In this document: positions 1-7,298 of the stretch, in pieces | How the letters are laid out: the number at the start of each line of letters is the position of its first letter | Numbering within the stretch: the stretch's first letter is position 1 | From: Nocardioides deserti | GTDB taxonomy: Bacteria; Actinomycetota; Actinomycetes; Propionibacteriales; Nocardioidaceae | Length of the DNA stretch: 64,000 bases | Direction: 5' to 3' | NCBI RefSeq assembly: GCF_014266025.1 | Contig: NZ_JACMYC010000001.1 | Span: 310,001 to 374,000 of the forward strand | Made by a program: the position numbers and the translations under genes | Notes under the pieces: generated by a model | Databases searched by the model: none | Told to the model about the DNA's origin: nothing | The model's input: the letters and a program-made list of their open reading frames with translations, nothing else

Positions 1-1214
1 GCGTCGGTGACCGGCGCGAGCGTGACCCCGGAGGCGTCCAGGTCGCGCCGGAGCGCGGCGGCCAGCTCCTCGGACCGCGTCGCACGCCAGTCGACGACGC
101 GGTCGCCGGCCTCCGCCTCCGCCCGCCGCTGCTCGAGCCAGGACACGCCCCGCAGCAGGGGACGGTCGGCGGCGGCGGCGAGCACCTGTCGCCACCAGGA
201 TCGTTTGACGTCGAGCTCGGGGTCGCCCCGGTCGTCCGGGATCCACAGCGCGCCAGTCTCGACCAGCATCGGCTTCTCCCGGCCGGCGGCGAAGCGCTCG
301 TAGAACGGGGTGCGCCCAGCAGTGCCGCCGTAGTTGAACCGCTCCTCGAGCTGGGCGACGAACGCGTCCGCCGCCGGCTCGACGTCGAGGCGGAAGCCGG
401 GGCTGCCTTCGGAGTCACCGGTCTCGCCGCCCTGGGCCGGGTCGAGCTCGTTGTCCTGGCGTCCGCTGTCGACGCCGAAGTGGTAGAGGGTCAGGCCGAC
501 CCAGTCGACCGCGGCCGAGCCGGGCCAGTAGGGCCCGTAGGGGTCGTCGCGCGCGTCGAGCCGGCCGTTCCCGTCGGTGTCCAACCGATCGGTGTCGTCG
601 GTCCGGTCCGGGTCCACGTCGCCGTACGCCGCGCCGTAGGGGTAGCCCGCTCCGTAGACCGGGGACCACACCATCGCGGCCTGCGGGGTGCGGCCGTGGA
701 CCACGTCGGCGACGAGGCGGAACGCATCGACGTAGGCACTCGGCTGCTGGCCCCAGGAGTACCAGCTGCCGTTCATCTCGGGGGCGAACCGGAGCAGGAA
801 GAAGGCGTCGAGCTCGTCGTGCAGCGCGACGAGCTCGTCGGCGAGGGCGGTGGCGTCCGTCTCGGTGAGCTCTGCCAGCGGGGCGGCGGGTTCCAGGTCG
901 ACGACGGCCACCGCGCCGAGCGCGGCGGCCTGCTCGACGAAGGTGCGCAGGAAGGACCGGGAGCCGTCGTCGAGGGGGTAGCGCACCCGCTGCGCGAGCA
1001 GCGACGGGCTGCGGCCCAGGCGATCGGCGTAGTCGTCCGCGCTGTCGACGGTCCAGTCGAGCGCGGGTCCGAACCACGGCTCGCCCGCGGGCGGCAGAGG
1101 CGCCGGGTCGTCCGTCGTCGTCGCGGTCGCCGGGCCGGCCGTCGCCAGCGCCATCGCCAGCGTCCCGAGGAGAGCGGCGAGCCGCGCGCTCAGCCCGCCG
1201 AGCCGCGCCGGCAC
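1..1214 (-). CDS. Secreted GH26-like endo-glycanase (3' end outside window)
   Basis: Partial gene: about 404 codons are visible and it continues past the left edge. The GTG start at 1214 gives an n-region with arginines and a hydrophobic core ending near ATAGPATA (residues 1-31), a likely signal peptide. The family GH26 pair is visible: general acid Glu in FAPEMNGSWYSWG (about E146) and nucleophile Glu in KPMLVETG (about E319). GH26 enzymes cleave beta-1,4-mannan or related beta-glucans. An Asp-rich EF-hand-like loop, DTDGNGRLDARDD (about 212-224), interrupts the barrel and probably binds Ca2+. The gene overlaps the kinase gene upstream by 25 bp and is last in the visible GT2 operon, so it may trim or release the polymer made by the GT2 (inference). 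True substrate unknown. Confidence 0.8.
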   Translation of the reverse strand, partial: MPARLGGLSARLAALLGTLAMALATAGPATATTTDDPAPLPPAGEPWFGPALDWTVDSADDYADRLGRSPSLLAQRVRYPLDDGSRSFLRTFVEQAAALGAVAVVDLEPAAPLAELTETDATALADELVALHDELDAFFLLRFAPEMNGSWYSWGQQPSAYVDAFRLVADVVHGRTPQAAMVWSPVYGAGYPYGAAYGDVDPDRTDDTDRLDTDGNGRLDARDDPYGPYWPGSAAVDWVGLTLYHFGVDSGRQDNELDPAQGGETGDSEGSPGFRLDVEPAADAFVAQLEERFNYGGTAGRTPFYERFAAGREKPMLVETGALWIPDDRGDPELDVKRSWWRQVLAAAADRPLLRGVSWLEQRRAEAEAGDRVVDWRATRSEELAAALRRDLDASGVTLAPVTD

Positions 1215-1618
1215 TCGAGCGTCCAGTGGTTGCGGCCCTCGACCCGTTCGTAGCGCAGGTCGTCGAGCGCCGCCGTCGCAAGTGCCAGGCCGCGTCCGGA
1301 CTCGGCCAGCTCGTCCTCGGGCAGGGCGACGCCGCTCAGGTCGAGCGCGACCGGCAGCCCGTTGTCGGCGAGGCTGGCGACGACACGCTCGTCGTCGGCG
1401 ACGAGCGTGATGTCGAAGCGACGCCCTGACTCGGCGTCGTGGGCGTAGGCGTGCTCGACCACGTTGCCGAGCACCTCGATCACGGCCAGCTCGAAGCGGC
1501 TCCGGTCCCGCTGCTCCCAGCTGTCGGCTCGGGCCCAGAGCTGCGCGAGCATGCTGTGCACCACCTCGAGGACCTCGGGGACGGCGGGGGCGGACAGCAC
1601 GAGCCGCCCGTCAGTCAT
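1190..1618 (-). CDS. RsbW-like anti-sigma factor kinase (HATPase_c)
   Basis: A 142-aa stand-alone GHKL ATPase domain. Visible motifs are the N-box (ELAVIEVLGNVVEHAY, Glu/Asn for Mg-ATP), the G1 box (SLADNG) and the G2 box (ESGRGLAL), as in RsbW/SpoIIAB. Such proteins bind a partner (a sigma factor or another target) and are displaced by the unphosphorylated STAS protein, which they phosphorylate on Ser. The cognate STAS gene lies directly upstream with an 8-bp overlap, and a PP2C phosphatase starts the same operon, completing a partner-switching triad. No sigma factor gene is adjacent, so the controlled target could be the GT2 itself or a distant sigma factor (inference). Confidence 0.85.
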   Translation of the reverse strand: MTDGRLVLSAPAVPEVLEVVHSMLAQLWARADSWEQRDRSRFELAVIEVLGNVVEHAYAHDAESGRRFDITLVADDERVVASLADNGLPVALDLSGVALPEDELAESGRGLALATAALDDLRYERVEGRNHWTLECRRGSAG

Positions 1619-1946
1619 CGAACGCCGTGTCGACGTCGTCCCGGGCCCGCAGGACCCGGTCGAGGTTGGTGAGCTCGAAGACGGTCGTCACCGCTGGGAC
1701 CGGGCGGGCGATCCGCAGGTCGCCGCCGGCCTGCCGCGCCGACTTCAGCCCGCCGATGAGCGCTCCGAGGCCGGAGGAGTCCAGGAACGTCGTCTCGGCC
1801 ATGTCGACGACGATCCGGCTGGTCCCGGTGCCGACGAGATCGGCCAGGACCTCCTTGAGCTGCCGCGCCGCCACCATGTTCAGCCGACCGCGCGGGACGA
1901 CGACGCCGATGCCGTCGTCGCGGGTGTGGACGTCGATCTCGATCAT
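1611..1946 (-). CDS. STAS-domain anti-anti-sigma factor (RsbV/SpoIIAA-like)
   Basis: A 111-aa single STAS domain. The phosphorylatable serine is in the canonical loop TTFLDSSGLGALIGG (about residues 52-66), as in SpoIIAA and RsbV. In the family, the dephosphorylated form captures the anti-sigma kinase; here that kinase is the overlapping downstream gene. The ATG at 1946 overlaps the stop of the GT2 gene (ATGA), so it is translationally coupled to the synthase. Confidence 0.88.
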   Translation of the reverse strand: MIEIDVHTRDDGIGVVVPRGRLNMVAARQLKEVLADLVGTGTSRIVVDMAETTFLDSSGLGALIGGLKSARQAGGDLRIARPVPAVTTVFELTNLDRVLRARDDVDTAFDD

Positions 1947-3937
1947 GCAGGCACTCCTGGGGTAGGACCGGCGCCGGGCCCGGCGTCGGCGGGGACGGCA
2001 TCCGGCTCGAAGCCGCGGTAGCGGACCGCCCGGATGATGACGGAGAAGATCAGCAGGTCGAAGGCGACCCAGAGCAGGTTGAACCCGATGCCGAGGAGCT
2101 CGCCCTGCCCGACGGCGAGCCGGACCAGGCCGATGACGGCAGCGCCGACCAGGAGTCCCATCGCCCACAGCTGGGGCTTGACGAGGTGCCAGTCGTGGCC
2201 TGACTTCTCGCGCTTGGTCTTCGGCGTCACCGCGAAGTCCAGGCTGCGACCGAGGAACACGTTGCCGAAGGCCGAGGTGAAGGACTTGATCCAGATCGGG
2301 AACAAGGCCAAGGAGTACTGCTGGCCCCGCCACGTCGGCCGACCCGCGGCGACGATGAAGAACAGCAGCTGGTTGAGCACGAGGAACGGCACCAACCGGA
2401 CGAAGAAGTCGGTGCTCAGTGCCTGGACGGGTAGTACTCCGATCGTCAGGTAGACCACCGGTGCGGCGATGTAGACCAGGGCGGCGAAGCCCGACAGGTA
2501 GCTCCACATCGTGGAGAAGTACATCAACCGCTGCGCCAGGGTGAGCCCCTTCTGGACGAGGGGGTTCTCCCGGAACATCACCTGGACGGTGCCCTGCGCC
2601 CAGCGCAGGCGCTGGACGAGCATGGTCTGCAGGTCCTCCGGCGCGAGGCCGTGGGCGAGCACCTCGTCGTGGTAGGCGGAGCGCCAGCCCAGGGTGTGCA
2701 ACCGCATGCAGGTCGCCATGTCCTCGGTGACGGAGATCGTCGCGAGCGGCATGATCGGCTGCGCCTCGCCGCCGCGGCCGACGTCGACCGCGCGGACGAG
2801 CGCCTCCACGGTCTCGACGGCCCCCAGCGGCGACCACTCGCGCTGGGTCATCTGGTCCAGCGCGGAGAGGTCGATCGTCGCCAGCCCGCCGTCGGGACTG
2901 TCCGCGATGCCGTCCAGGCTCGCGATGATCTCCAGGTCGGCCTGCATCGTCTGCAGGTCCGCCGCGACGAGCGAACGGCGTACCTCCGCGACCTGCTGCT
3001 GGAAGCGGAAGGTGACGTCGAACAACGCCTCGCCGGCCGTCAGGGCGGCTCGCGCCTCGGCGATGCGGCCTTCGATCTCGTCGAGTGCCGCCCGCACCTC
3101 GACCTCGTCCCCAGGCAGCTGCCTCCGCGCCGAGCGGATGACCGAGCGGGCGGTGCGGAGCGCGCGGCGGACGCCCTCCTCCACCTCGCCGACGTAGCGG
3201 GAGACACCTAGCTGCATCAGCGCCTCGCGGCGGATGACGGCATTCGACCCGCAGAAGAACGCGGCGTTCCAGCCGTCCTTGCCCTGCTGGATGGGCCCGT
3301 AGAACAGCGGCGCCTGGCTGCCGAGGGGGTCCTCCTCAGGCACGTTGACGAACCACTGGGGCGTCTGCACGAGCGCCATCCGCTCGTCCTCGAAGTAGCC
3401 GAGGGTGCGGTCGAGGATCTCCGGCAGCGGGATCTGGTCGGCGTCGAGGATCAGCATGAACTCGCCGTCGGTCTGCAGCAGCGCGTTGTTGAGGTTGCCG
3501 GCCTTCGCGTGGCGCGGCATCCCCGCCCAGTCCGCCGACCGCGTCAGCCAGCCGATGCCCTCGGCCTCCGCCGCCGCACGCATCTCCGGCCGGTTGCCGT
3601 CGTCGAGGATCCAGGTGCGATGCGGGTAGCGGATCGCCTTCGCCGCCCGCGCGGTCGCCATCACCAGCTCGATCGGCTCGTTGTACGTCGCGATGAACAC
3701 GTCCACCGTCCGGTCGGGCGGGGCCGGGGGCGGGTCTCCCCGCTCCTTGAGCCGCCACATGCCCAGGCCGAAGAGGAGTGAGTCGACCAGGCTGTAGGTC
3801 TCGGCGAGCACCAGCGGCACCGCGATCCACCAAGCCGACCAGTTCACCGAGAACATCCAGCGCCAGGTCAGGTAGTTGAGGCCGAGCAGGGCGGTGACCA
3901 GCACCACCGTGCGGATCAGGAGCAGGCGCCGGCTCAC
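1943..3937 (-). CDS. Cellulose-synthase-like family 2 glycosyltransferase with a large insertion
   Basis: A 664-aa membrane synthase from a GTG start at 3937 that overlaps the phosphatase stop (GTGA). Two N-terminal TM segments (about 5-22 and 36-58) precede a GT-A domain with YNEP (85-88), DDG (112-114), the metal-binding DAD (165-167), QTPQWF (191-196), TED (404-406) and QRLRWAQG (442-449), the full set for processive synthases of the BcsA/CesA type; at least five C-terminal TM segments follow. No PilZ domain was seen at the C-terminus, so c-di-GMP control of the BcsA kind is not supported. The stretch between FCGSNAVIRR (228-237) and TED is about 165 residues, far longer than in BcsA, and its charged, Ala-rich composition suggests coiled coil. 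Probable role: synthesis and export of a beta-linked polysaccharide. The polymer is unknown. Confidence 0.88.
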   Translation of the reverse strand: MSRRLLLIRTVVLVTALLGLNYLTWRWMFSVNWSAWWIAVPLVLAETYSLVDSLLFGLGMWRLKERGDPPPAPPDRTVDVFIATYNEPIELVMATARAAKAIRYPHRTWILDDGNRPEMRAAAEAEGIGWLTRSADWAGMPRHAKAGNLNNALLQTDGEFMLILDADQIPLPEILDRTLGYFEDERMALVQTPQWFVNVPEEDPLGSQAPLFYGPIQQGKDGWNAAFFCGSNAVIRREALMQLGVSRYVGEVEEGVRRALRTARSVIRSARRQLPGDEVEVRAALDEIEGRIAEARAALTAGEALFDVTFRFQQQVAEVRRSLVAADLQTMQADLEIIASLDGIADSPDGGLATIDLSALDQMTQREWSPLGAVETVEALVRAVDVGRGGEAQPIMPLATISVTEDMATCMRLHTLGWRSAYHDEVLAHGLAPEDLQTMLVQRLRWAQGTVQVMFRENPLVQKGLTLAQRLMYFSTMWSYLSGFAALVYIAAPVVYLTIGVLPVQALSTDFFVRLVPFLVLNQLLFFIVAAGRPTWRGQQYSLALFPIWIKSFTSAFGNVFLGRSLDFAVTPKTKREKSGHDWHLVKPQLWAMGLLVGAAVIGLVRLAVGQGELLGIGFNLLWVAFDLLIFSVIIRAVRYRGFEPDAVPADAGPGAGPTPGVPA

Positions 3938-5115
3938 CGCCCGTGCTCCGACCGGAACACGGCCACCGCAGTGATGTCGTCCAGCGCGGTCTGCGACCGC
4001 GCCAGCCGGGCGATCGCCGTCAGCAGCGCCGGCACGTCGGGCGCCTCGGCGACCATCGCGCCCAGCGGCCCCCACCACCGGTCGGGATCATCGAGCAGGT
4101 CCAGGACGCCGTCGCTGAACACGAGCAGCCGGCCACCCGGCTCCACCTCGGCGAGGTGCTCGGTCCAATGGTCCTCGGGCAGGACCCCGAGGGGGCGGTC
4201 CCGGCCGCCGAGCCGCTCGACGGCGCCGTCGGCGTGGACGACGAGCGCCAGGCCCGAGCCGGCGTCGACGTACCGCAGCTCGCCGTCGTCGAGGTCGAGG
4301 GCGACCTCCATCAGGGTGGCGAAGGACTCCGCCGCCTCGAAGTCCGCGAGCAGCGAGCGGGCGACCTGGGTGACCACGATGCCGAGGTCGACCCCGGCGG
4401 CGACCGCGTCGTTCGTGCCGCGCAGGGCGGTCCGGACGCCCGCACCGAGCAGGGCCGCGCCGGTTCCCTTGCCCATCACGTCGCCGAGCGCGAGGTGCAG
4501 CGTCTGCCGGGTGACGACGTAGTCGTAGAAGTCGCCGCCGACCGCGAGTGCGGGCAGGCACACTCCCGCGACGTCCCAGCCGTCGACGCGGATGGGCGTC
4601 GCCGGGAGCAGGGAGGCCTGCACCCGCCCGGCCTGGGTCATCTCCGCGGAGGCGACGAGCTCGAGCTCCGCCCAAGCCGCGAGGTCCTGGAACGTGACGA
4701 GGTCGTCCCCGGCGAGGGTCCGGGGTTCGGTGTCGTAGACGCAGAAGGTCCCGACCACGTTGCCGGCATGGTCGCGGAGGGGATGCCCGGCGTAGAACCG
4801 GATGCCGCCCTCGGAGACCACCGGCAGCTCGCGGAAGCGCTCGTGCAGCGTCGCGTCCTCCACGACGAGGGTCCCGCCCTCGTCGTGCGTGCGGTCGCAG
4901 AACGTCTGGTCGCGGGGGAGCTCGTCCAGCTCGATCCCGGCGGTGCTCGGGAACCACGCCCGCTCACCGTCCAGGACGGTCACGGTCGAGATCGGCACGC
5001 GCAGGGCCGTCCGCGCCAGCCGGGTGACCCGGTCCAGCCGGTCGTGCTGCCGGCCCTCGTCGAGGGCGAGGCTCTCGACGGCGCGTTGACGCCGCTCCTC
5101 CGCGGAGGTCCCCAT
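3934..5115 (-). CDS. GAF-PP2C (SpoIIE/RsbU-type) serine phosphatase
   Basis: 393 aa. The N-terminal GAF-like sensor (about 25-160) carries typical pieces such as RDQTFCDRT, GGIRFYAGHPLRD and GNVVGTFCVYD. The C-terminal PP2C/SpoIIE domain (about 180-390) has the metal-binding motifs VGGDFYD and LGDVMGKGTGAALL plus a late FSDGVLDLLDD. Family role: it dephosphorylates the Ser-phosphorylated STAS protein in response to a GAF ligand or redox signal, triggering partner switching. It is first in the operon with a good Shine-Dalgarno-like GGGTGA ahead of ATG 5115, followed with 4-bp overlap by the GT2. Expression start lies in the 115-bp gap shared with the divergent response regulator. Confidence 0.88.
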   Translation of the reverse strand: MGTSAEERRQRAVESLALDEGRQHDRLDRVTRLARTALRVPISTVTVLDGERAWFPSTAGIELDELPRDQTFCDRTHDEGGTLVVEDATLHERFRELPVVSEGGIRFYAGHPLRDHAGNVVGTFCVYDTEPRTLAGDDLVTFQDLAAWAELELVASAEMTQAGRVQASLLPATPIRVDGWDVAGVCLPALAVGGDFYDYVVTRQTLHLALGDVMGKGTGAALLGAGVRTALRGTNDAVAAGVDLGIVVTQVARSLLADFEAAESFATLMEVALDLDDGELRYVDAGSGLALVVHADGAVERLGGRDRPLGVLPEDHWTEHLAEVEPGGRLLVFSDGVLDLLDDPDRWWGPLGAMVAEAPDVPALLTAIARLARSQTALDDITAVAVFRSEHGR

Positions 5116-5230
5116 GGTGCTTCACCCTTCCGCGCCCGTCGTGCCAGAGCCCCCATGCCGTGCGCGCCGGGCCGATACCCCGCGCCGGTCGGATACCAAA
5201 CGTCTCCGGCCGCGGGCTAGGGTCGCACGT

Positions 5231-5968
5231 GTGGAGCAGGTGGTCGGACAACGTGCCCTGGTGGTCGACGACGACACCGACATCCGTGAGCTGGTCCAGG
5301 TCCTGCTCGAGGGGATGGGGCTGCAGGTGTCGGCGGCTGCCTCCGGAGCCGCGGCGCTCGACATGGCGCAGCGGGAGTCGCCGGACCTGATCACCCTCGA
5401 CCTCACGCTGCCCGACATGGACGGCAGGGACGTCTGCCGGGAGATCCGTGCCTTCTCCGACGCCTACATCATCATGATCACCGGTCGGGACTCCGAGATC
5501 GACCGGCTGGTCGGGCTCGAGGTCGGCGCGGACGACTACTTGGCCAAGCCGTTCTCCCCGAAGGAGCTGCGAGCGCGGTCCGCGGCGCTGCTGCGTCGTC
5601 CGCGCGCCTCCACGACGGGGACCACGCCGGCCGAGGGCGCGCGCTCGGCCCCGGCCCCCGACCTGGACGCCGGTGGCGGCCTGGTGCTGGTACCGGTCGA
5701 CCACGTCGCCCTGCTCGACGGTCAGCCCTTGCCCCTGACACCCGCAGAGCTCGCGCTCCTCACCGCGTTCGCCGCGCAGCCGGGCCGCACCTGGGACCGC
5801 GGCGACCTCGTCCGCGAGGTGTGGCAGGGCGAGTTCATCGAGTCCGACTTCCTCGTCGACGTCCACGTGGCGAACCTGCGGCGCAAGCTCCGCAAGGCCG
5901 GCGGCCGCCACCGTGAGTGGATCCGCACCGTCGGCGGTGTCGGCTACACGTTCGCCTCCGCCGACTGA
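5231..5968 (+). CDS. OmpR/PhoB-family response regulator
   Basis: 245 aa from GTG 5231; an upstream in-frame start would add a non-conserved Arg/Pro-rich tail. The receiver domain shows the acidic pocket (VVDDDTD), the phospho-acceptor Asp in LITLDLTLPDMDG, and the conserved Lys in LAKPF. A Pro/Ala linker leads to a winged-helix DNA-binding domain (LTPAELALLTAFAAQPGRTW, then VDVHVANLRRKL and TVGGVGYTF). No histidine kinase gene is adjacent. It is divergent from the phosphatase-GT2 operon across about 115 bp, so it may control that operon (inference). Confidence 0.9.
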   Translation: MEQVVGQRALVVDDDTDIRELVQVLLEGMGLQVSAAASGAAALDMAQRESPDLITLDLTLPDMDGRDVCREIRAFSDAYIIMITGRDSEIDRLVGLEVGADDYLAKPFSPKELRARSAALLRRPRASTTGTTPAEGARSAPAPDLDAGGGLVLVPVDHVALLDGQPLPLTPAELALLTAFAAQPGRTWDRGDLVREVWQGEFIESDFLVDVHVANLRRKLRKAGGRHREWIRTVGGVGYTFASAD

Positions 5969-5994
5969 GCCGCGCTCGGCTGGTCGCCGGCTCA
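5966..5994. terminator. Inverted repeat between convergent genes
   Basis: TGAGCCG (5966-5972) and CGGCTCA (5988-5994) form a 7-bp stem that spans the stop codons of the response regulator and the convergent channel gene. No U-tract follows. It may act as a bidirectional terminator; weak evidence. Confidence 0.35.
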
Positions 5995-6720
5995 GGCCTC
6001 GTTCCTCGTGGCGGCCTGGGCCTCCTGGGCGGCCTGGGTCTCCTTGACGGCCTGCCGGCTGACGACGAGGCCGACGAGGCGGGAGATGACGAGGGCCACG
6101 TAGAGCACGCCGGCGACCATCTCGACCACGACCAGCGAGCGGGCGTTGGCCTGGATCGGGACGACGTCGGAGAGCCCCACGCTGGTGAGCACCGAGAACG
6201 ACAGGTAGAGCAGCTCGAACCAGGAGCGCTGGTCCCCGCCCCCGGCGCTCGTGAAGGCGTCAGGGACGAGCACCTGCGTGGCGGAGTACAGGTAGGCGAA
6301 GCCCCAGGCGACGACCGTGAACGCCGCACCGGTCGCATAGAGCTCGTCGGTGGTGACCCGGTCGTCGTGGAAGAGGTACCGGATCAACGCATAGGAGACG
6401 TAGAAGTAGAACGGCGCGTGCAGCAGCGCGGAGACCAGGACGACCCAGTCGGTGTCGGGCGAGGCCGCCTCGAGCACGGTGAACACGACGGCCGGGGCCC
6501 CCAGGAGGCCGGCGGACCAGTTGAGCGCAGGCGTGCGGCGCACCGCCCAGACCGCGATGGTCACCACCGCGATCTGCACCACGCCGATCACGGCACGACC
6601 GGCCGCGGAGTCCTGCAGGAACGGGTAGGCGAGCACCGCCACCAGCTGGACCCCGAGCAGGACGGCGGACGGGTGTCGCCCGAGGACCCCGCGGACCTGC
6701 TGCTGGCCGGCCGCGGTCAC
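5992..6720 (-). CDS. Two-pore-helix K+-channel-like membrane protein
   Basis: 242 aa from GTG 6720, overlapping the upstream gene by 4 bp (GTGA). About five to six hydrophobic segments are visible; the last two flank a pore loop, LLYLSFSVLTSVGLSDVVP, that resembles Ion_trans_2 channels. The selectivity-filter region reads TSVGLSD rather than the canonical TVGYGD, so K+ selectivity is not assured. The C-terminus is a short charged, Ala/Gln-rich tail. Likely a small ion channel in the plasma membrane, co-transcribed with the DUF1707 protein. Confidence 0.75.
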   Translation of the reverse strand: MTAAGQQQVRGVLGRHPSAVLLGVQLVAVLAYPFLQDSAAGRAVIGVVQIAVVTIAVWAVRRTPALNWSAGLLGAPAVVFTVLEAASPDTDWVVLVSALLHAPFYFYVSYALIRYLFHDDRVTTDELYATGAAFTVVAWGFAYLYSATQVLVPDAFTSAGGGDQRSWFELLYLSFSVLTSVGLSDVVPIQANARSLVVVEMVAGVLYVALVISRLVGLVVSRQAVKETQAAQEAQAATRNEA

Positions 6721-7298
6721 GGTCGACTCCCTCGGCCGCCCCGGTTGCGCAGGGCCTTGGCCTGGCGTCGCTCGAGCCGCTCGACCTCCGCGGTGATCAG
6801 CTCCTGGCGGGAGACGAGGGTCCGGACCAGGTGGAAGCCGGTCGCGGCCATGACGATGAGCGGCCAGGGGAAGTACGGCTCGAAGCCGCCGTCGCCGAAC
6901 GACGTGGCCACCCACACGGCCCAGCAGATGAGGGTCGGGCCGATGAAGGCGAGCACCGCCGAGCGCCGGTCGGACTCCCACTCGCGCGCGGCCATCCGCC
7001 GCAGGTCGTCGGGGCTGGCGAGGGCGAGGGCCGCCGACCTCCCCCGCGCGGGCGCGGGGGTCGTGGGCACGAGGTCGTCGAGGAGCGGTCGCAGGTCGCC
7101 GAAGGTCCGGGCCGAGGCGAGCCCGGCGGCCCTCTCGTCGTGCTCCTCGCGGGTCAGCCGTCCGTCGGCGTACGCCTCGCCCAGCACGCGCAGCACGACG
7201 TCGCGGTCCGCGTCGCCGGCGCGCAGGCCGGCGTTCGCCTTGACGCGAGGGTCGTGGGTGAAGGACGCCCAGGTGGCGGCGGGATCGTGGCTGGGCAC
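6717..7298 (-). CDS. DUF1707 protein with 2TM segment
   Basis: 193 aa. The N-terminal DUF1707 signature is clear: AGLRAGDADRD, a GRLTREEHDER stretch and an LRPLLDDLVP ending (about 24-78). After an Ala/Pro linker comes a pair of hydrophobic helices (about 115-132 and 144-160) separated by an aromatic loop, then a basic tail. DUF1707 domains are short helical modules common in actinobacterial membrane proteins; biochemical role unknown. The gene is divergent from the mce operon; its ATG is 47 bp from the KstR-like box. Confidence 0.8.
   Translation of the reverse strand: MPSHDPAATWASFTHDPRVKANAGLRAGDADRDVVLRVLGEAYADGRLTREEHDERAAGLASARTFGDLRPLLDDLVPTTPAPARGRSAALALASPDDLRRMAAREWESDRRSAVLAFIGPTLICWAVWVATSFGDGGFEPYFPWPLIVMAATGFHLVRTLVSRQELITAEVERLERRQAKALRNRGGRGSRP

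Follow-up and report, generated by a model that had tools for sequence, protein, structure and literature searches.

A partner switch linked to a BcsA-type polysaccharide synthase in Nocardioides deserti, with the synthase as its probable target

What does a partner switch control when the gene lying in its midst encodes a polysaccharide synthase? The question is raised by the first ~5.1 kb of a 64 kb stretch of the Nocardioides deserti genome (the window, whose positions serve as coordinates below), where the minus strand encodes a BcsA-type synthase of glycosyltransferase family 2 (GT2) together with a phosphatase, a STAS-domain protein and a serine kinase. A sequence-only reading of this stretch had suggested that the switch may act directly on polymer synthesis, by way of an insertion in the GT2, or else on a distant sigma factor. 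Our analysis assigns a probability of about three in four to the GT2 being the output of the switch, gated post-translationally in place of control by cyclic di-GMP (c-di-GMP) and PilZ, and we are rather confident that the switch acts on the synthase and not on a sigma factor or a cyclase. We strongly favour a direct effect on polymer synthesis because switch and synthase are inherited together, the gene set is kept when its order is rearranged, the insertion and a PilZ domain exclude each other, and some cyanobacterial synthases carry the kinase in their own reading frame; the contact itself we infer. Gene content, the in-frame kinase, conservation, co-inheritance and the absence of PilZ and GGDEF domains were computed directly.

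Pfam and NCBIfam matches identify all three components of a partner switch, as had been read from the sequence. A 393-residue protein with a GAF and a SpoIIE-type PP2C phosphatase domain (3934..5115, minus strand; Pfam SpoIIE 99 bits, GAF 50 bits) is the probable sensor and STAS-P phosphatase. The STAS-domain protein, anti-sigma-antagonist-like and 111 residues long, is encoded at 1611..1946 (minus strand; TIGR00377 67.8 bits, cut-off 53.45), and the RsbW-like GHKL serine kinase, of 142 residues, at 1190..1618 (minus strand; Pfam HATPase_c_2 58.7 bits). The synthase, 664 residues from a GTG start and matched by the GT2 and cellulose-synthase models of Pfam and NCBIfam, occupies 1943..3937 on the same strand; the coordinates 5115-3934, 3937-1943 and 1946-1611 confirm that it sits between the phosphatase and STAS genes. 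From the phosphatase through GT2, STAS and kinase to a fifth gene for a GH26-like/OpgC protein, consecutive genes overlap by 4, 4, 8 and 25 bp.

There is strong evidence that switch and synthase belong together. In a survey of 149 genomes of the family (we take the GT2 and STAS searches to have covered the same set), the GT2 occurs in 31, and phosphatase, STAS and kinase genes adjoin it in 30 of these 31 loci. Exactly one cognate STAS is found in every GT2-positive genome (31/31; 132-169 bits, E <= 1e-30) and in one of the 118 GT2-negative ones (Fisher p 3e-31, phylogeny ignored). Similarly, we compared the surroundings of insert-bearing and insert-free GT2s, using non-identical loci with at least 3.5 kb on each side; eight loci had been removed as duplicates of identical GT2s, and short flanks excluded 20 of 120 insert-bearing loci and 6 of 17 controls, one of the controls (L144) being a fragment. 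Around the 100 remaining insert-bearing GT2s, a phylogenetically uneven set gathered by similarity to the query, STAS was present in 87 loci, the kinase in 86 and PP2C in 80; all three were present in 78 and none in 7. The 11 insert-free control loci never had all three (STAS 1, kinase 0, PP2C 1). Outer flanks amounting to 966 kb contained one STAS, no kinase and 18 PP2Cs, background counts on which we reject chance neighbours as the source of the linkage. Two controls show matches of their own: around the PilZ-type control L237, STAS, kinase and PP2C matches lie 2.5-5.4 kb off, STAS and PP2C on the opposite strand, and L145 has a weak PP2C match.

A search for the five-gene order in actinobacterial genomes, proposed along with the sequence-only reading, returned the switch set again and again with an insert-bearing GT2, in variable order. 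With P for PP2C, G for GT2, S for STAS, H for the kinase and [H] for a kinase inside the GT2, we found P-G-S-H, G-S-H-P, P-S-H-G, P-H-G-S, PH fused-G-S and G[H]-S; the orders vary and the set persists. The module is also present in Arthrobacter, Clavibacter, Gordonia, Williamsia, Mycolicibacterium, Microbacterium and further Actinobacteria, in an Acidimicrobiales metagenome-assembled genome (MAG) and, beyond the Actinobacteria, in two Chloroflexi MAGs (Roseiflexus, Anaerolineae), a Spirochaetales MAG and Cyanobacteria. Scanning named genomes yielded 80 loci, which partly overlap those already in the set. At E 1e-60 a phylum-wide search matched 5 of 396 genomes, two with a full-length GT2 and three with an N-terminal match only; these three loci were reused as controls L247-L249. 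In the Spirochaetales locus, one chain of PAS, GAF, PP2C and HATPase domains (L120:5764-7971) directly upstream of the GT2 holds phosphatase and kinase in a single protein.

The module has its three parts, and the key residues in them, in common with the RsbW/RsbV/SpoIIE control of SigB and SigF. The STAS acceptor column holds Ser in 101 of 102 linked STAS proteins and Thr in one. The N-box E and N are kept in 98 of 99 linked or inserted kinases, the exception (L120) being a truncated match; N box and G2 box are present, and the G1 residue is variable in some. Asp columns of the phosphatase, presumably metal-binding, are conserved in 86-89 of the 92 PP2Cs near GT2s. Sigma control is the canonical role of such proteins, and the switch might accordingly act on a SigB/F-type sigma factor encoded elsewhere, the GT2 being merely co-transcribed or a member of the regulon. 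SigF-like genes are present in the window's own genome (the best at 310 bits, four others above 200), which counts against the synthase as the target. We nevertheless regard this explanation as improbable. The locus differs from the RsbW/RsbV/SpoIIE systems in having no SigB/F/G match, in agreement with the missing sigma factor of the sequence-only reading: the SigB/F/G model, the one sigma model run on the window, gave a sole weak match there at ~51.1 kb. In 8 of 22 module-bearing genomes the best SigB/F/G match reaches only 131-148 bits (cut-off 234), and all eight carry the three switch genes near the GT2; within the 22, L130 has only STAS near its GT2, and L136, L137 and L142 are of the fused form. 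Classification with NCBIfam of 10 of the 19 translated sigma candidates, which are the stronger SigBFG matches of these genomes, gave RpoD-type or FliA/WhiG-type best models, several of these matches lying below the model's own cut-off. Switch and synthase are, moreover, absent together across the family, and a kinase inserted inside the GT2 argues against a sigma target. The proposal of a distant sigma factor is thereby weakened, even with SigF-like genes in the genome at hand; extracytoplasmic function (ECF), FliA-type or primary sigma factors are possible targets in principle.

An intermediate step through c-di-GMP was considered as well, in which the switch would control a diguanylate cyclase whose product then acts on the GT2, as for BgrV-BgrR, HsbA-HsbD and SiaC-SiaD. 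The accessible parts of the literature describe such a partner-switch route to polysaccharide in Sinorhizobium (PMC7647112) and c-di-GMP binding by BgsA without a PilZ domain (PMC5567048), and GGDEF proteins are present in 11 of the 19 module genomes tested. In the other eight, including the window's own (100% complete), no GGDEF domain was found, and the GT2 is without PilZ; because of these eight genomes we set a GGDEF intermediate aside, and the route appears highly improbable unless they make use of some other family of cyclases. Neither SigB/F/G nor GGDEF was found in Tessaracoccus (G556), Microbacterium (G558), Arthrobacter (G559) and Georgenia (G560), four genomes that carry the full module.

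Known systems place these results in context, here as far as the consulted excerpts of the sources go. The partner switches described there end in sigma factors or, for a few of them, in diguanylate cyclases (PMC8457831, PMC7647112, PMC8256260). The BgrSTUWV-BgrR-BgsA system of Sinorhizobium meliloti, which produces a mixed-linkage beta-glucan, resembles our locus in that a partner switch (the phosphatase/kinase couple BgrU/BgrW and the STAS protein BgrV) ends in a BcsA-like GT2, but its output is the cyclase BgrR and c-di-GMP, whereas the window's genome has no GGDEF gene. In SiaABCD / HsbA-HsbD of Pseudomonas aeruginosa, which has a role in biofilm, the switch acts on an enzyme by contact, as it would here; that enzyme is a diguanylate cyclase, not a polymer synthase. 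STAS/kinase/phosphatase sets are also linked to the syp polysaccharide locus of Vibrio fischeri (SypA-SypE) and to hormogonium motility and polysaccharide in Nostoc punctiforme (HmpUVW), neither with an output known as a sigma factor. No target is named for these two in the excerpts, whereas here the in-frame kinase and co-inheritance point to one. An Anabaena glycosyltransferase that has STAS at its N terminus, all4160, is mentioned in a review. Full-text searches of an open-licence library, outside which lie subscription papers such as the primary Bgr and Hmp ones, brought up no description of such a module with a synthase among the papers listed, which accords with the earlier remark that no characterised system with this exact combination was known.

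The synthase itself carries the next line of evidence. It shares with BcsA the GT2 core with its DDG, DxD, TED and QxxRW motifs; the window GT2 aligns to E. coli BcsA across this core and keeps the catalytic motifs and the gating loop (FAVTPK). Its AlphaFold2 (AF2) model, built from 46 sequences, has a predicted local distance difference test score (pLDDT) of 83, and its top Foldseek matches are BcsA structures. Since it scores 340 bits against the CelA model TIGR03030, where the cut-off is 699, the term cellulose synthase describes a resemblance only. GT2s of this type differ from BcsA by lacking PilZ (none was found in the window GT2 with Pfam) and by carrying a helical insertion or a kinase domain. 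In the window GT2, the alignment shows ~153 additional residues (245-397; 2747..3205, minus strand) just before the TED motif, where BcsA runs straight on, and the insertion proposed from the sequence is real; AF2 models it as long helices at 237-273, 279-300 and 305-342.

In the GT2s scanned, insertion and PilZ do not occur together. PilZ is present in all 16 full-length insert-free controls (15 over the cut-off, L143 under it) and in none of the 62 insert-bearing GT2s scanned out of 120 (46 from set A2, 16 from set A3). Measured by alignment, regular-expression lengths being too short for some, the stretch before TED comprises 14 residues in 16/16 full-length controls, 156-181 in 85 of 86 non-cyanobacterial insert-bearing GT2s and 36 in 26 unfused cyanobacterial GT2s. 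Cyanobacterial GT2s have 129-146 residues between DDG and HAKAGN, and 263-271 where the kinase lies inside. Only in L117 is the insertion clearly shorter, at 116 residues; STAS adjoins this GT2 and no kinase was detected beside it. T309 and S369 in the insertion are nearly invariant and the kinases keep their catalytic residues, which would fit a kinase that phosphorylates the insertion directly and a phosphatase that reverses this. GHKL switch kinases are known to phosphorylate STAS partners, though, and the acceptor Ser of the STAS proteins is kept almost throughout (101/102), so that direct phosphorylation of the GT2 seems unlikely to us. As to the product, a BcsB gene (L110:5437-7902) directly upstream of the switch-linked GT2 in the Roseiflexus locus hints at a beta-glucan. 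One published analysis of bacterial GT2s, in the part available, discarded sequences with insertion regions >10 residues (PMC6821405), a filter that may partly explain why the group went unnoticed.

In seven cyanobacterial loci (L136, L137, L142, L208-L211), an RsbW-like kinase domain lies in frame within the GT2, between DDG and HAKAGN and with helical stretches on either side. The frames span 786-813 aa, and Pfam HATPase_c_2 matches all seven inserted domains at 53-69 bits. STAS follows 23-119 bp downstream in six of the seven, and no separate kinase was matched near any of these fused GT2s, with L137 ending 291 bp past the GT2 and cutting its STAS. An assembly error as the origin of the fusion was ruled out by the seven non-identical loci in different genomes, two of which (L208, L211) are on contigs >5 Mb. 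An order-level search matched 20 of 148 cyanobacterial genomes, five with fused and 15 with unfused GT2s; among 26 non-identical unfused loci, 14 have a standalone kinase of ~140 aa within 2.8 kb. The inserted kinases are nearest to these standalone kinases of sister loci (39-53% identity) when compared with six kinases of other phyla, and both kinds form one clade in the kinase tree (97/94), in which the standalone ones (96/89) are placed next to L137 (89/64) among the fused. FastTree nests the unfused GT2s within the fused, a more careful tree has the fused on one side of a branch (63/97), and a constraint holding the unfused GT2s together was not rejected (approximately unbiased test, p-AU 0.28); judged from these trees, fission of the kinase out of the GT2 is possible. 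DUF3131 proteins are encoded just upstream of two cyanobacterial GT2s (L208:4518-8687, L212:6970-8421).

How could such a switch gate a synthase? We propose that a GAF-sensing PP2C phosphatase and a GHKL kinase would set the phosphorylation of STAS, and that the switch would gate the membrane-bound BcsA-type synthase by protein contact, replacing c-di-GMP and PilZ. In the likeliest geometry, by analogy with RsbW, the kinase would bind the helices inserted in the catalytic domain and restrain the synthase. Upon stimulation of the phosphatase, unphosphorylated STAS would capture the kinase and synthesis would start; once STAS is phosphorylated, the kinase would return to the synthase and the system would be reset. 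Where the kinase is part of the synthase, STAS would bind to it there. Outside the cell, the GH26-like/OpgC protein may trim or acylate the polymer, putatively a beta-glucan.

Direct contact, the polarity of the switch and the choice of the contacting part are all conditional in this scheme, and we lean only modestly towards the kinase as that part. The main rival has unphosphorylated STAS itself bind and activate the GT2, leaving the kinase to set STAS phosphorylation; a comparable role is proposed for SypA and reported for SiaC acting on SiaD. The counts near the GT2 are almost equal for STAS and kinase (87 vs 86 of 100), and in L115 and L117 no switch part other than STAS was detected beside the GT2; in the consulted parts of published work, a STAS or STAS-like protein is described as the downstream output for SypA, HmpV and SiaC (PMC10120452, PMC8256260, PMC8457831). 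It is the kinase and not STAS, however, that is inserted in the synthase at seven cyanobacterial loci, and in Curtobacterium a kinase stays beside the GT2 with the cognate STAS elsewhere. Activation by STAS is therefore a possibility we take seriously and still think doubtful.

Loci that depart from the pattern bear on the proposal in both directions. Contig-edge cases apart, 11 actinobacterial loci have a GT2 without adjoining STAS. Nine were tested (genomes G033 and G825-G832, with Curtobacterium L081 and L082 outside the test), and all nine genomes hold a cognate STAS with an adjoining kinase elsewhere (STAS best 147-157 bits): a PP2C-STAS-kinase trio in G033, a REC-PP2C-STAS-kinase set in Arthrobacter G825 and G826, a STAS-kinase pair in five Curtobacterium genomes, and a second complete locus with its own GT2 in G827. 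In the Curtobacterium loci L080-L082, L085, L086, L089 and L094 (with L265-L269) the kinase is perhaps duplicated.

Several observations weigh against the synthase as the target, or against a uniform way of reaching it. In Curtobacterium, one kinase adjoins the GT2, a further STAS-kinase pair lies at another place, and no PP2C was detected nearby. G046, the one GT2-negative family genome with the cognate STAS, has an intact PP2C-STAS-kinase trio and no GT2 was found in it, and G033, of the same genus, keeps trio and GT2 apart; the trio may therefore serve another role in that genus. The cyanobacterial loci L134, L141, L223 and L224 (contig edge) show no switch gene within the 3.5 kb flanks that were searched, of the 26 unfused cyanobacterial loci 12, including some on short contigs, reveal no kinase in the vicinity, and L208 is without STAS nearby. 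The fused GT2 of L210 (8577-10934) has altered DDG, HAKAGN, TED and QRLRW motifs and looks like a pseudo-synthase that retains its kinase domain. The AF2 model of a fused protein (L137, 16-row alignment) is poor, with a mean pLDDT of 57 and values <50 in the kinase part; a fold search was dropped for this reason, and the inserted kinase rests on its HATPase_c_2 sequence matches. Conservation in the actinobacterial insertion falls below that of the core (mean top-residue fraction 0.50 vs 0.76), and the insertion is kept also where the switch module has been relocated. In FastTree the insert-bearing GT2s form one group with a support of 0.75 only, the non-cyanobacterial ones with 0.39, and the family searches scored only part of the first-look candidates per genome. 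Finally, the cyanobacterial kinase sits at a different site (DDG-HAKAGN) from the actinobacterial insertion (before TED), and therefore no single docking mode explains both. Of the two parts of the original suggestion, direct action on polymer synthesis stands the firmer, while action on the GT2 insertion is plausible.

Further genes accompany the switch and synthase. The fifth gene of the operon (1..1214, minus strand) extends 1170 bp past the window start (L009:6830-9214) and encodes 794 residues. Its overlap with the kinase gene bears out the five overlapping genes of the sequence-only reading, but its product, there taken for a secreted GH26 enzyme, is by its domain matches not simply secreted: it is a GH26-like/OpgC membrane fusion protein. 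The N terminus, read by eye, resembles a signal peptide. The GH26-like N-terminal half scores below the Pfam cut-off (PF02156, 14.6 bits vs 20.2), with standalone GH26-like homologues in Gordonia and Williamsia reaching 49 bits, and the C-terminal OpgC_C membrane domain exceeds its own (PF10129, 96 bits vs 21), as expected of an OpgC-type acyltransferase. A phmmer search of the whole protein against PDB sequences gave no match at E 0.01. Across the family, the GH26-like part occurs in 21 of 31 loci and the OpgC part in 17 of 31; the two share one reading frame in 16 of the 21. A divergent OmpR-type response regulator, already noted from the sequence and borne out by domain search (5114..5968, plus strand), occupies the same place in just 10 of the 31 family loci and is therefore not core. 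Beyond it, reading by eye suggests a membrane protein resembling an ion channel, whose pore-like motif TSVGLSD is unusual (5992-6981, minus strand), and a YrbE/Mce-type transport operon that seems to start at ~7.3-10.3 kb (plus strand).

Post-translational control of bacterial cellulose-type synthases is understood mainly through c-di-GMP. We consider it somewhat probable that a BcsA-type group in Actinobacteria, Chloroflexi, Spirochaetales and Cyanobacteria has exchanged c-di-GMP and PilZ for a serine-phosphorylation switch on the catalytic domain, with a kinase that alternates between a gene of its own and a domain within the synthase. No earlier partner switch would then be known to have a polysaccharide synthase as its output. 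As to what STAS proteins such as SypA and HmpV act on, the module offers one concrete kind of answer, in that the target can be a glycosyltransferase. Where nature has joined kinase and synthase in one chain, a test of the idea needs just two proteins, the fused GT2 and the STAS protein that goes with it, and bacteria free of GGDEF proteins would gain a plausible means of switching a matrix polymer on and off.

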